This document shows positions 11,983 through 62,558 of a stretch of DNA of 64,000 nucleotides, in pieces. This DNA comes from Rufibacter sp. XAAS-G3-1 (GTDB taxonomy: Bacteria > Bacteroidota > Bacteroidia > Cytophagales > Hymenobacteraceae). The stretch spans positions 62,001 to 126,000 of the forward strand of contig NZ_JABFAM010000011.1 of assembly GCF_013623775.1 (NCBI RefSeq), in the 5' to 3' direction. The notes under the pieces are model-generated. The model made no database searches, was not told the origin of the DNA, and saw nothing but the letters and a program-made list of their open reading frames with translations. Within the stretch, counting starts at the first letter, position 1. Every line of letters starts with the position of its first letter. Made by a program: the position numbers and the translations under genes.

Positions 11983-12301
11983 GGAAGGAGGGATGGAGGG
12001 GTTAAATGCTGGCGCGAGTCTGGAGACTCGCGCCTACAGATGATGGGTAGTCTCCTGACTGTCCTCGCTGCCCAGCAGCGACACGGCGCATTGCCGGTCA
12101 TCCACGTCTATACGACTATACCGCCTGCTTAAATGACCTTGTAGTGTCTGAAAGACCCGCGAGCGTCTGTATTGCACGCCAATCAGGAGATTGGCTGCCC
12201 AAGGGTGCGTAGAACGCTGCCGCTAACTCTACGCACAACAATAAAGTCTGGAGACTCGCATCACCCCTCGTCACGAGACTTTAGTCTCGCGCCAGTATTT
12301 T
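11983..12301. other. gene-free region with GAGACT hairpins
   Basis: Holds a GAGTCTGGAGACTC hairpin (12014-12032), a diverged version of the composite repeat (CCTTGTAGTGTCT near 12130), a TGCGTAGA/TCTACGCA dyad (12206-12236) and a GAGACT hairpin pair (12246-12293) just past the 3' end of the thioredoxin-NHL gene. No coding content is seen. Confidence 0.6.
12246..12295. repeat. GAGACT hairpin pair, copy 2
   Basis: GTCTGGAGACTCGC and CACGAGACTTTAGTCTCGCG, followed by CCAG. Same order and spacing as at 1540-1596. It may act as the terminator of the minus-strand gene that ends at 12302. Confidence 0.7.
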
Positions 12302-28457: not shown

Positions 28458-31037
28458 TTGAAGCTGACACGTTTTCTCCTTATCCTTCTTTTTCTGGGCA
28501 CCTTGGCGGGCTGTTCCTCAGATAAGCCTTTGGGCCGGCTGTACCGCAACGTGAACGCCCGGTTCAACGGGTATTTTCTGGCGTACACCAAAATGGAAGA
28601 GGTAGAAGCGCGGCTGGCCGCTGCCAACGTCAATGACTACAACCGCGTGCTGGACATTCTGCCGCCGCTGGACACCACGGTGCTGAAAACCCTGGCCCCT
28701 AACCTGGACGAGGTCATCAAACGTGCTTCCTTCCCCATTGCGCGCCACCCCAAGTCCCGGTGGATTGATGACTGCTATGTCTTGATTGGCAAGGCCCGGT
28801 ACTACCAGGGCGAAGACGCCGAGGCGATGAAGACGTTCCGGTTTGTGCAGACCACCAGCCCAGACCGCCACGCCCGCCACGAGGCCATGATCTGGATGAT
28901 GCGCCTGTACCTGCGGCAAAAAGACTATGACAGCTTCACCTCCCTTTCTGAGCAGTTCCGGAAAGAGCGCATGAACGAAGACAACGGCCGCGAATTGCTT
29001 TTGACCAGGGCCCAACTGGCCAGCCTCCAGAACAACCTGCCGCTCGTGATTGAGAACCTGGAGCAGGCCATCCCCTTCGCCCGTAAAAGAGACCAAGAGT
29101 CAAGGCTCAGGTTTATTCTGGGGCAGTTGTACCAGGCCACCAATCAAGACGCCAAAGCGTATGAGCAGTTCGCGACGGTCTTGAAGAAGCGGCCGCCCTA
29201 TGAACTAGGCTTCTACGCCAACCTCAGCCTGGCCCAGGTAACGGAGCTGAAAGATGCCACGGATCAAACCAAAGTGAAAAACTTCCTCCAGAAACTGGCC
29301 CAGGACGAAAAGAACAAAGAGTACACCGACAAAATCTACTATGACCTGGCCAAACTGGAGCTTCGGCAGAAAGAATATCCAGAGGCTTTGAAGCTGCTGC
29401 GCCAATCTACGGCCACTTCCACCACCAATAGCATCCAGAAAGCATATTCTTATCTCTTGGCCGGGCAGATCTACTATGAGAACCTGCAGCAGTATGGGCT
29501 GGCGCAGGCGTACTATGACAGCACCCTCCAGTATTTGCCGCCCACCACGCTGGGGTATGAAGAACTGGCTGACAGGCGCACGGTGCTCACGGCGTTTACC
29601 CAGCAGTTGGAGATCATCCGGTCAGAAGACAGTTTGCAGGTCTTGGGCCAACTAAACCCTACTGAGCGGGCCCAGCGGGTAGCCCAGCAGATAAACCGGG
29701 AACAGGAACAACAAGCCGCCGCCGCTCTAGCCGCCGCCAATGCCCCCGCCGGGTTAACCCAGCAGACGGCCACGTTGCCCATCGGCGGAGCCGGAACCCA
29801 GGGCAGCACCTGGTATTTTGACAACCCCGTGGCCCTCGGGAGCGCCCGCAATGACTTCCTGCGCACCTGGGGAGACCGCCCCTTGCAGGATAACTGGCGC
29901 CGCAGCACGGCCATCTCAGGAGCAACTCCGCTTACGGCAGGGATAGTGACCAGCACGGGGGTAGACAGCAGTGCCCTGGCCGCCGCCGTAGTGCAGAAAC
30001 AGCAAGACTATCTGGCCGCTATTCCGGTCACGCCAGAGCAGCGCCAAGCCTCAGACAAACGCATAGAGGAAGCCCTGTTTACCTTAGGCAATATCTACCA
30101 GCAGCGCCTGCGAGAACCCCAGAGAGCGGCCCAGACGTTTCAGAAGCTGTTAGAGCGGTTCCCCGCCTCTCCCCATGCCTCTGAGGCCTACTACAGTTTG
30201 TATGTGCTCTCGCAGAGTTTACAACAGACCGAGAAAGCAACTGAGTACGCCCGGGCCCTCAAAGAGCGTTTCCCTACGTCTAAGTACAGCAAACTCATTG
30301 ACCAACCAGATTTCCTGCGGACGTATTCGGCCGAGAACCTGGCGGCGCACGCCCTCTATGATTCGGCGTATGTGCTGTATGAAGATGAAAAGTACCCCGA
30401 GACCTTAGCCGTTTTGGCGTCCCTTTCCCAAAAATACCCCCAAAACGACATTCAGGATCAGATCGCTTTTTTGCAGGCCTTGGTAGTGGGCCGCACGCAA
30501 CCGGCGGTCACGTTCAGGGCGGCCATGGAACAATTCATTATCCGGTACCCCGAAAGCCCTTTACAATCCAAAGCGCGGGACTTCATGAACCTGTACCTGC
30601 GGTATGAAACCGGTGAGTTGGCCAAAGCCCCCGTGGCAAGCGCGCCCATTGTCCCCAAAGAAGAGATTCCTACGTACAAAGCAGAGCAAAGCTTGCCGCA
30701 TTCCTTCGTGATTGTGCACACCGGCGACAGCGTGGCCCTGCGGCAACTTACCACGGCCTTCGGCACGTACAATGCCCGGTTTCACCCTAAAAAGCAGTTG
30801 AAGCTGGAGCCGGTGCCTTTCGGGAACGACACCACCCTCCTGCTGATCCAGGCGCTGCCCGATTTTAAAGCCGCCCAACAGTACGCCAAACTGCAAACCA
30901 CCCGCAATTCTCCCCTAGCCAATTTAAAAGGCTCGAATTTTGCTACCTTTGTCATTACTGATGCAAACCTGGCTTTACTTAGAAAGCTGGGCGATTTAGC
31001 AGAGTATCTAGCTTTCTTTGAAAAAAATTACCAATAG
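28458..31037 (+). CDS. porW: PorW/SprE-like T9SS lipoprotein with TPR repeats
   Basis: 859 residues. A lipobox (LFLGTLAGC, Cys19) follows a short signal, then the SprE/PorW hallmark YRNVNARFNGYFLAYTKMEE and a long series of TPR-like helices (for example WIDDCYVLIGKARYYQGEDA near residue 93). Residues 400-540 include a Gln- and Ala-rich low-complexity linker. In the type IX secretion system this periplasmic lipoprotein links the outer-membrane translocon to the GldKLM/PorKLM trans-envelope ring. Its start is TTG; no in-frame ATG is available. A possible diverged palindromic element occurs in frame near residue 651. PBP1A begins 1 nt after its stop. Confidence 0.88.
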   Translation: MKLTRFLLILLFLGTLAGCSSDKPLGRLYRNVNARFNGYFLAYTKMEEVEARLAAANVNDYNRVLDILPPLDTTVLKTLAPNLDEVIKRASFPIARHPKSRWIDDCYVLIGKARYYQGEDAEAMKTFRFVQTTSPDRHARHEAMIWMMRLYLRQKDYDSFTSLSEQFRKERMNEDNGRELLLTRAQLASLQNNLPLVIENLEQAIPFARKRDQESRLRFILGQLYQATNQDAKAYEQFATVLKKRPPYELGFYANLSLAQVTELKDATDQTKVKNFLQKLAQDEKNKEYTDKIYYDLAKLELRQKEYPEALKLLRQSTATSTTNSIQKAYSYLLAGQIYYENLQQYGLAQAYYDSTLQYLPPTTLGYEELADRRTVLTAFTQQLEIIRSEDSLQVLGQLNPTERAQRVAQQINREQEQQAAAALAAANAPAGLTQQTATLPIGGAGTQGSTWYFDNPVALGSARNDFLRTWGDRPLQDNWRRSTAISGATPLTAGIVTSTGVDSSALAAAVVQKQQDYLAAIPVTPEQRQASDKRIEEALFTLGNIYQQRLREPQRAAQTFQKLLERFPASPHASEAYYSLYVLSQSLQQTEKATEYARALKERFPTSKYSKLIDQPDFLRTYSAENLAAHALYDSAYVLYEDEKYPETLAVLASLSQKYPQNDIQDQIAFLQALVVGRTQPAVTFRAAMEQFIIRYPESPLQSKARDFMNLYLRYETGELAKAPVASAPIVPKEEIPTYKAEQSLPHSFVIVHTGDSVALRQLTTAFGTYNARFHPKKQLKLEPVPFGNDTTLLLIQALPDFKAAQQYAKLQTTRNSPLANLKGSNFATFVITDANLALLRKLGDLAEYLAFFEKNYQ

Positions 31038-47486: not shown

Positions 47487-47538
47487 GTTTCCACGTTTTG
47501 GGGCTGTTTTTCGGAAAACAGGCCATAAACGTGGAAAC
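47487..47538. repeat. palindromic element PE20
   Basis: Outer arms GTTTCCACGTTT and AAACGTGGAAAC pair over 12 bp; the core appears in reverse orientation (GGGGCTG left, ACAGGCC right). Confidence 0.85.
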
Positions 47539-47779: not shown

Positions 47780-47833
47780 AAGGAACCCGTTTGGGGCCTG
47801 TTTTCTGAAAAACAGGCCCCAAACGAGTTCCTT
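47780..47833. repeat. palindromic element PE21
   Basis: A 25-bp stem with a single mismatch: AAGGAAC, CGTTTGGGGCCTGTTTT, four-base loop, then the complement. It ends 14 nt from the stop of the YwqK-like gene and serves well as its terminator. Confidence 0.9.
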
Positions 47834-60317: not shown

Positions 60318-60358
60318 AGGTGTTTTGGGCCTGATTTTGCAGAAACTGCCTTGAAAGG
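60318..60358. repeat. palindromic element PE28
   Basis: AAGGTGTTTTGGGCCTGATT, TTGCA loop, GAAACTGCCTTGAAAGG. It lies between the enhancer-like dyad and the SpoU gene in a divergent region. Confidence 0.65.
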
Positions 60359-61010: not shown

Positions 61011-62558
61011 TTGTTCCAGTTCCTGAACCCGGCGTGGTGGTGGGCCGCCGCCAGCGTGGCAGTGCCCATTGCCATTCACTTGTGGAATAAAAGGCCGCCC
61101 CGTACGGTTCTGGTAGGCAGCATCCGGTGGCTCCAACCTTCAGAGAGCCGGAAACTGAGCAGGCTGCGCCTTACCCAACCTTGGCTTTTGCTCCTGCGCT
61201 GCCTGCTTCTGGTTTTGCTTGCCGTGGTGTTAGCCAGTCCTTTTTGGAAGCACCAAGTTCCCGCCGTTCCGGGGAAACACGCCTACCTGCACCCCGAGCT
61301 GCTGCACTCCCGCTACCTCCCAGACATTGCCGCCACCGTAGATTCTTTAGCCCTGAAAGGCTGGCAAGTCCACCGTTTACAGCCTGGTTTCCCAAAACTG
61401 CCTCTAAACGTAGAAACCTCTATCCAAAACTTTCAAGCCGATAGGCTGCCTGCTGACACCACCAACGCCTGGGCCATGCTGCGCGTGCTTAACCGCAGCC
61501 TACCCGCCAACGCCCAAGCCTGGCTTTTCACCACCAATCTGCTCCGGCACCACCGCGGTGAACTTCCTACCATGCGCCCCGGCATCACCTGGGTTCCCGT
61601 AAGCGTACCCCAAACCAATACCTGGCTACAGGAAGCTTATTACACTACCTCGGGACAACTGCTGCTGCGTTTCGGGCAGAGCGATGGTCAAAACGTCACG
61701 TTTTCGGAAAGAAGAGTCCCCAAACCCGTCGCCGGACAAACCATTTCAGTGCCTGATGCACCCGCCGTCCGGTTTACTTCCCACGCCGCTGCGGATTCCC
61801 TGACCTTGCTAGACGGTGCCCGAAATTCTCTTCCGCTGGACAAACAGCCGCTGCGAGTGCTGGTACGTTTCTCAAAATTACGGCAAGCCGATGTCCGGTA
61901 CCTGCGGGCTGCTTTGCAAACGGCTCTGGACTACAAAGGCATCGCGTATAAACTGATCTCTTCCGCTGAAACCCAGCCGCTCCCGGCCTCGGCCCCGAGT
62001 TGGGTTTTCTGGCTAACCGATGAACTGCTCGCTCCCTTTTTGGCCCGTTTTCCGGAAAAGAGGCTGAAAACCCTGCAAGATGCCCCCACCGGTGACCGTA
62101 TCCAGAAAACAGAAAGCTGGCTGCAAATTCCCGGCATTTCACAGCCCGTGCCGCTGCACCAAAGGACTTCCGCCCCAGAGAAAGTCACCGCAGACATTCT
62201 CTGGCAAGACGGCGTCGGGAACCCCATGCTCACCCAGGAGCAGGACTCCCTTCAAACCCATTACCGTTTCTACAGCCGCTTTCACCCCACCTGGAACGAC
62301 TTGTCCAACAATGGACACTTCCCAGAACTGCTCCTGCGTCTGCTCTTCCCGGAAGAAACCTTCTGGCGCACGCGTTTTGACACCCGTACGCTGTTGCAAG
62401 AGATGGAACAGCCTCGGGCGTTTACCGGCTCCATTTCAGAAAACAGCCCTAAAACAGAGGAGATGCTGGATTTGAAGCCGTGGCTGGTGGCATTGTTGGC
62501 GTTTTTGCTGGGATTGGAACGGTGGTTGGCGGGAAGAAGAGCAAGGATTAATGCTTGA
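61011..62558 (+). CDS. BatA-type membrane protein carrying three in-frame palindromic elements
   Basis: 515 residues. The N-terminus (FLNPAWWWAAASVAVPIAIH, then RLTQPWLLLLRCLLLVLLAVVLAS) is the BatA N-terminal domain with two membrane helices; a final helix lies at LKPWLVALLAFLLGLERWL. The middle resembles the extracytoplasmic part of similar Bacteroidota proteins. No von Willebrand MIDAS motif was found. Palindromic elements lie in frame at residues about 121-133, 341-354 and 470-482, giving short basic peptides such as RFPEKRLKT and SISENSPKT. The start is TTG. The next gene is a DUF4175 protein, its usual neighbour. Function unknown. Confidence 0.82.
   Translation: MFQFLNPAWWWAAASVAVPIAIHLWNKRPPRTVLVGSIRWLQPSESRKLSRLRLTQPWLLLLRCLLLVLLAVVLASPFWKHQVPAVPGKHAYLHPELLHSRYLPDIAATVDSLALKGWQVHRLQPGFPKLPLNVETSIQNFQADRLPADTTNAWAMLRVLNRSLPANAQAWLFTTNLLRHHRGELPTMRPGITWVPVSVPQTNTWLQEAYYTTSGQLLLRFGQSDGQNVTFSERRVPKPVAGQTISVPDAPAVRFTSHAAADSLTLLDGARNSLPLDKQPLRVLVRFSKLRQADVRYLRAALQTALDYKGIAYKLISSAETQPLPASAPSWVFWLTDELLAPFLARFPEKRLKTLQDAPTGDRIQKTESWLQIPGISQPVPLHQRTSAPEKVTADILWQDGVGNPMLTQEQDSLQTHYRFYSRFHPTWNDLSNNGHFPELLLRLLFPEETFWRTRFDTRTLLQEMEQPRAFTGSISENSPKTEEMLDLKPWLVALLAFLLGLERWLAGRRARINA
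61373..61410. repeat. palindromic element PE29 inside a coding sequence
   Basis: CCGTTTACAGCCTGGTTTCC then CAAAACTGCCTCTAAACG, full length. It is read as HRLQPGFPKLPLNV in the BatA-like protein. Confidence 0.75.
62032..62072. repeat. palindromic element PE30 inside a coding sequence
   Basis: CTCCCTTTTTGGCCCGTTTT then CCGGAAAAGAGGCTGAAAAC. It is read as PFLARFPEKRLKTL; the left outer arm is degenerate. Confidence 0.7.
62418..62457. repeat. palindromic element PE31 inside a coding sequence
   Basis: GCGTTTACCGGCTCCATTTC then AGAAAACAGCCCTAAAACAG. It is read as AFTGSISENSPKTE, in the same frame relative to the element as PE30. Confidence 0.7.

Follow-up and report, generated by a model that had tools for sequence, protein, structure and literature searches.

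Within the window (the whole 64-kb stretch of DNA analysed here), a BatA-like gene carries three palindromic elements, PE29, PE30 and PE31, in a single open frame. How did these palindromes come to lie within a protein-coding sequence? A sequence-only reading had proposed that they interrupt the gene by in-frame insertion and add short peptides to its product, in the manner of the palindromic elements of Rickettsia. The gene and its three elements are as follows:

61011–62558, plus strand: BatA-like gene, an open reading frame of 515 amino acids with a TTG start; residues 3–77 match Pfam BatA (PF07584) with 63.6 bits.
61374–61410, no strand: PE29, 37 bp with a 3-nt spacer, encoding RLQPGFPKLPLNV (residues 122–134).
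62035–62072, no strand: PE30, 38 bp, encoding PFLARFPEKRLKT (residues 342–354).
62419–62456, no strand: PE31, 38 bp, encoding AFTGSISENSPKT (residues 470–482).

The gene is flanked by a SpoU-type methylase gene on one side and a DUF4175 gene on the other, and its orthologues in 15 congeners share 59–82% identity. We first defined the palindrome family from 12 other palindromes in the window, mostly clear intergenic copies, and built a covariance model (R1) from those 12 copies alone, leaving out PE29, PE30 and PE31. Searched against the 64 kb, R1 recovered PE29 with 27.4 bits (E 8e-5), PE30 with 30.6 bits (E 1e-5) and PE31 with 19.9 bits (E 0.0085). From 864 kb of this genome (800 kb in stretches, plus the window), we collected 407 copies to train a pair-aware matrix, which gave 35.0 bits for PE29 with a 3-nt spacer, 39.9 bits for PE30 and 34.5 bits for PE31; its training set includes PE30 and PE31, and the independent 12-copy covariance model agrees with it. 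The reversed 864-kb sequence contained no match of at least 20 bits to the matrix, and none of at least 15 bits to the form of the motif with a 3-nt spacer. Together, the scores and the empty control identify all three palindromes as true family members rather than chance matches, at the positions first assigned to them. PE30 and PE31 do share one frame of the element, and PE29 is read in another. For PE30 and PE31, the peptides originally attributed to them (ARFPEKRLKT and SISENSPKT) take in no more than the right-hand part of the element; each of the three elements spans about 13 residues.

The family consensus in this genome is CGTTTTnrGSCTGTTTTnnnnAAAACAGSCynAAAACG, a dyad-symmetric motif of 38 bp. 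Each half-site consists of two GTTTT boxes 11 bp apart, and the halves face each other across a 4-bp spacer. Scanning of the 864 kb returned about 410 copies of at least 28 bits, of which 386 are intergenic, 10 lie at gene edges and 14 lie within genes, an in-gene share of about 3% as delimited by a simple home-made gene finder. Extrapolated from this density, the 5.3-Mb genome would hold about 2,500 copies. Three intergenic copies in the window serve as points of reference:

47788–47825, no strand: strong intergenic copy, 56.9 bits with R1 and 48.8 bits with the matrix.
47494–47531, no strand: intergenic copy, 51.8 bits with R1 and 53.0 bits with the matrix.
60321–60358, no strand: upstream of the BatA-like gene, the closest copy outside coding sequence, 31.4 bits.

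The in-gene copies showed no clear preference for copy-poor regions, the median distance to the nearest copy being 1238, compared with 969 for random coding positions.

To trace the origin of PE29–31, we compared the BatA-like protein with its orthologues from 15 Rufibacter-group congeners and 14 outgroup genomes (30 proteins). The clean gaps of 12–14 residues that an insertion would leave in orthologues were found in none of these genomes at any of the three blocks. Across PE30, 28 of the 30 proteins have an anchor-to-anchor span of 27 residues, with outgroups ranging from 23 to 28. Across PE29 the span is 44 residues in all congeners and 38–51 in outgroups; across PE31 it is 31 in the window's protein, 31–32 in congeners and 29–33 in outgroups. 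In every one of the 16 genus members, PE30 (29.8–52.7 bits) and PE31 (19.1–49.8 bits) each lie at corresponding codons; no outgroup has either, and the palindrome-free orthologues carry homologous residues in their place. PE29 is found in seven species (10–35 bits), which form one nested, monophyletic clade in a four-gene tree, and is absent from nine of the genus's 16. The sister lineages that lack PE29 have equally long stretches of homologous residues written in different codons, for example CGG CTG CAG CCG GCC TTT CCT GAG TTG TCT TTG ACT in a neighbour versus CGT TTA CAG CCC GGT TTT CCC AAA CTG CCC CTA AAC. Since the residues are homologous and the difference lies in the codons, PE29 arose within the genus by substitution, a good part of it synonymous. 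The colinear orthologues rule out insertion for all three elements, which therefore neither interrupt the frame nor add peptides to it.

A check proposed with the sequence-only reading was whether the encoded segments fall in surface loops. In the predicted structure of the protein (mean pLDDT 80), the PE29 residues form the end of a strand and the coil after it, those of PE31 lie in a low-confidence linker ahead of the last helix, and those of PE30 span a helix, a turn and a strand in a confidently folded part. Judged from this model, PE30 is no extra loop on the surface. The palindromic elements of Rickettsia are reported to be in-frame insertions of ~150 bp with a conserved encoded peptide (PMC10969869). 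Like them, the Rufibacter family is found both between genes and in frame inside them. In contrast to those elements (about 100–150 bp), the Rufibacter motif measures 38 bp and is used in all three reading frames across its in-gene copies, yielding different peptides; moreover, its copies in the BatA-like gene are not inserted, their residues being homologous to those of outgroups. As a parallel for insertion, the Rickettsia elements thus do not apply to PE29–31.

In all, six genes with in-gene copies were traced into relatives: the BatA-like gene and five more. In the five further genes, most or nearly all congeners in which the gene was found carry the motif at corresponding codons; it is absent from the outgroups, whose residues are alignable in four of the five. 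Three of the sites are gapless, one falls in a variable-length loop (in a MurF/alanine-racemase fusion) and one in an unalignable linker. One of the gapless sites is in the window:

30410–30447, no strand: in-frame copy in a TPR gene (28530–31037), 34.3 bits, gapless against outgroups.

This copy scores 24.9–36.3 bits in 13 of 15 congeners and 15.5 bits in one, and is absent in one; all outgroups score below -13 bits. The motif is also carried by a CorC-like gene and by an AsmA-like gene, where four of the more distant congeners lack it. Finally, all 16 species have kept the motif in an outer-membrane beta-barrel gene (C14:243813), where it sits in a linker that otherwise aligns poorly. The motif is clearly under selection in this gene, although the copy may have originated by insertion.

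The codons themselves bear on whether the motif or only the protein has been conserved. Wherever a site reached 10 bits or more in a species, we recoded its residues synonymously 200,000 times. The recodings reached the observed score with P between 0.035 and <5e-6 in every species and at every site tested, and for PE29 in the window's gene (L001) none of the 200,000 did so. Since the motif is rarely regained by synonymous recoding, selection must act on the DNA sequence itself. The idea that the residues merely happen to use motif-like codons, through chance or pure protein constraint, draws on PE30, whose residues lend themselves to the motif (their synonymous recodings average 12.5 bits). 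It is refuted by two nulls, the empty reversed sequence and the synonymous recodings, which seldom attain the observed scores in any of the 16 species, and we regard it as scarcely credible. Comparison between species gives change rates of 0–0.06 at pairs 4, 5, 15 and 16 and of 0.15–0.75 at spacer positions, and in three of four species pairs the conservation of the copies exceeds that of nearby flanks. We propose that the in-gene copies formed where they now stand, as pre-existing codons took up synonymous changes and tolerated missense ones, and are now maintained by selection on DNA as well as protein, so that a DNA-level function appears to shape protein sequence in the genus Rufibacter.

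One congener, G009, stands apart: its copies are far weaker and A/T-shifted, with 15 copies of at least 28 bits in 120 kb versus 29 in the 64-kb window, and they show no excess conservation over their flanks. In this genome, the motif or its putative reader may be in decay or changing its specificity.

Could the family nevertheless be a REP-like selfish palindrome that a Y1 (RAYT) transposase has spread, the in-gene copies being old insertions that have since become conserved? REP elements are palindromes of 20–40 bp, and the Rufibacter motif resembles them in its size, its high copy number and its mostly extragenic distribution with few copies in genes. REPs inside genes have been reported (PMC3733652), and Y1_Tnp (RAYT-like) genes are present at one to six per genome in 15 of the 16 Rufibacter-group genomes; flanking motif copies were inspected at one such locus. 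Anchored comparisons between species give a different picture. Counterparts exist for 41 of 42 copies from G007 to G013 and for 34 of 39 in the reverse direction, for 22 of 22 from G004 to G014 and 20 of 23 in reverse, and, among the window's copies, for 21 of 22 in G010 and 12 of 22 in G009. No clean 38-nt empty site was found among the missing counterparts in these pairs, where 'absent' copies have decayed by point changes, been altered by larger indels or been lost when a deletion joined two copies. In addition, G007 yields no family-level Y1_Tnp match, yet its copies are abundant and strong, and the consensus, unlike those of REPs, lacks a GTAG or CGTC terminal tag and inner stem covariation (see below). 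Insertion is already refuted by the gapless sites for in-gene copies with alignable outgroups. For the family as a whole, with no clean empty sites and a link to Y1_Tnp that G007 does not support, we consider spread by such a transposase quite unlikely.

A separate observation concerns a stretch of G013 contig 1 (L111–L120 joined), in which copies at 62058 and 62148, 90 bp apart, match a single chimeric copy in G007. From its sequence, the chimera looks as if recombination had deleted the DNA between two copies.

The family had further been described as both an intergenic hairpin and a source of protein segments. It is borne out that one family supplies abundant intergenic palindromes and also protein-coding DNA; the term 'hairpin' is doubtful. 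An RNA hairpin selected in transcripts as a terminator, attenuator or stabiliser would account for the palindromy, for the copy present in 70% of convergent intergenic regions, for the longer perfect stems of some intergenic copies and for one site whose stem persists in G007 and G013 although its sequence differs. Such a hairpin should leave covarying pairs. Among 371 copies, however, Watson–Crick pairing at the inner pairs 9–17 equals the independent-column expectation: pair 10, where G and C are about equally frequent on either side, is paired in a fraction of 0.44 versus 0.46 expected. Covariation is weak and confined to the outermost pairs and pairs 6–8, and compensatory changes slightly exceed expectation (20 versus 13.5). 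G.T and A.C mismatches on the sense strand number 279 versus 231 in tandem intergenic copies and 25 versus 53 over the PE30 and PE31 copies. Copy density is also alike in convergent, tandem and divergent intergenic regions (2.3, 2.2 and 1.6 per kb, respectively), and some copies lie in the middle of genes. The spacer measures 4 bp in almost all copies; beyond the 410, three copies of at least 30 bits, PE29 included, have a spacer of 3, and none of at least 30 bits has a spacer of 2, 5 or 6. The tests of inner-pair covariation and G.U asymmetry thus came out against an RNA hairpin, which we judge to be a very unlikely basis for the family, and some intergenic copies may also work as hairpins. 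The missing inner covariation, the lack of a clear G.U preference, the near-fixed spacer and the similar densities are instead as expected if duplex DNA were bound by a protein complex with a fixed geometry, and we infer that the motif behaves as the binding site of such a complex rather than as a hairpin.

The motif is restricted to the genus. A covariance-model search (E ≤1e-5) found it in none of 40 genomes of other genera, and the same search gave at least 144–150 matches in each genus member searched, among the matches listed. In the literature, titles and abstracts offered nothing relevant on palindromes in Rufibacter, and we found no report on repetitive extragenic palindromic sequences in Hymenobacter.

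Genus restriction and copy numbers in the thousands are also features of DNA uptake sequences, such as the neisserial DUS and the Pasteurellaceae USS, where biased uptake and recombination would multiply a motif by point mutation (molecular drive). Like these, the Rufibacter motif is conserved at orthologous sites, arises within genes by substitution, as in the PE29 clade, and constrains the proteome. Its copies are spaced slightly more evenly than random (CV 1.07 versus 1.18, P 0.01), and DUS are likewise conserved and frequent in permissive locations (PMC2397512). However, known uptake motifs comprise 8–12 bases, and 65% of H. influenzae USS are located in ORFs (PMC2346458), whereas the Rufibacter motif is a 38-bp dyad with ~3% of its copies in ORFs. 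We therefore think it unlikely that the motif is itself an uptake tag. DNA uptake sequences, rather than the Rickettsia palindromic elements, are nonetheless its nearest evolutionary parallel.

In its architecture, the motif recalls the dyad sites of chromosome-organising and nucleoid proteins, with which it shares dyad symmetry, fixed half-site spacing, column-specific conservation, genome-wide distribution and conserved positions. Those sites are shorter and far fewer than the copies of the Rufibacter motif. Returning to the binding-site reading, we consider it probable that PE29–31 are coding copies of a genus-specific dyad motif that evolved in situ and are sites of a putative DNA-binding protein. 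Such a protein would be sequence-specific, dimeric or tetrameric, and would act genome-wide; its role could be, for example, in chromosome organisation. More tentatively, and at somewhat less than even odds in our estimate, Rufibacter may hold a previously undescribed genome-wide DNA-tagging system. It would comprise ~2,500 sites of 38 bp for a putative genus-specific protein, and the need for them would have been strong enough that copies were point-mutated into genes and then fixed in position while the proteins adapted.

The BatA-like gene allows two routes by which a repeat can enter a protein to be told apart: here, no residues were brought in, and the existing codons changed to approach a long DNA motif. 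Because this rewriting has been held across the genus, dated, gene-by-gene tests of dual coding become possible. The motif also points to a putative DNA-binding activity in a genus of the Bacteroidota, with sites numbering in the thousands. A note of caution follows for other genomes, as in-frame palindromes in genes do not by themselves prove the insertion of a mobile element.

Several minor observations accompany the family. Among the roughly 230 copies between tandem genes of this genome, 33 start no more than 10 nt past the upstream stop codon, and gene ends may have shifted into motif copies. A second palindromic repeat, GAGTCTGGAGACTC, occurs at 1544–1557 and 12016–12029, that is, twice in the window with 0.00 occurrences expected; units resembling it sit between motif copies in G013. 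At 1607–1633, a near-perfect palindrome of 27 bp, CCTGTGAGGTCTTTAAGACCTCACAGG, lies between copies of the 38-bp family.
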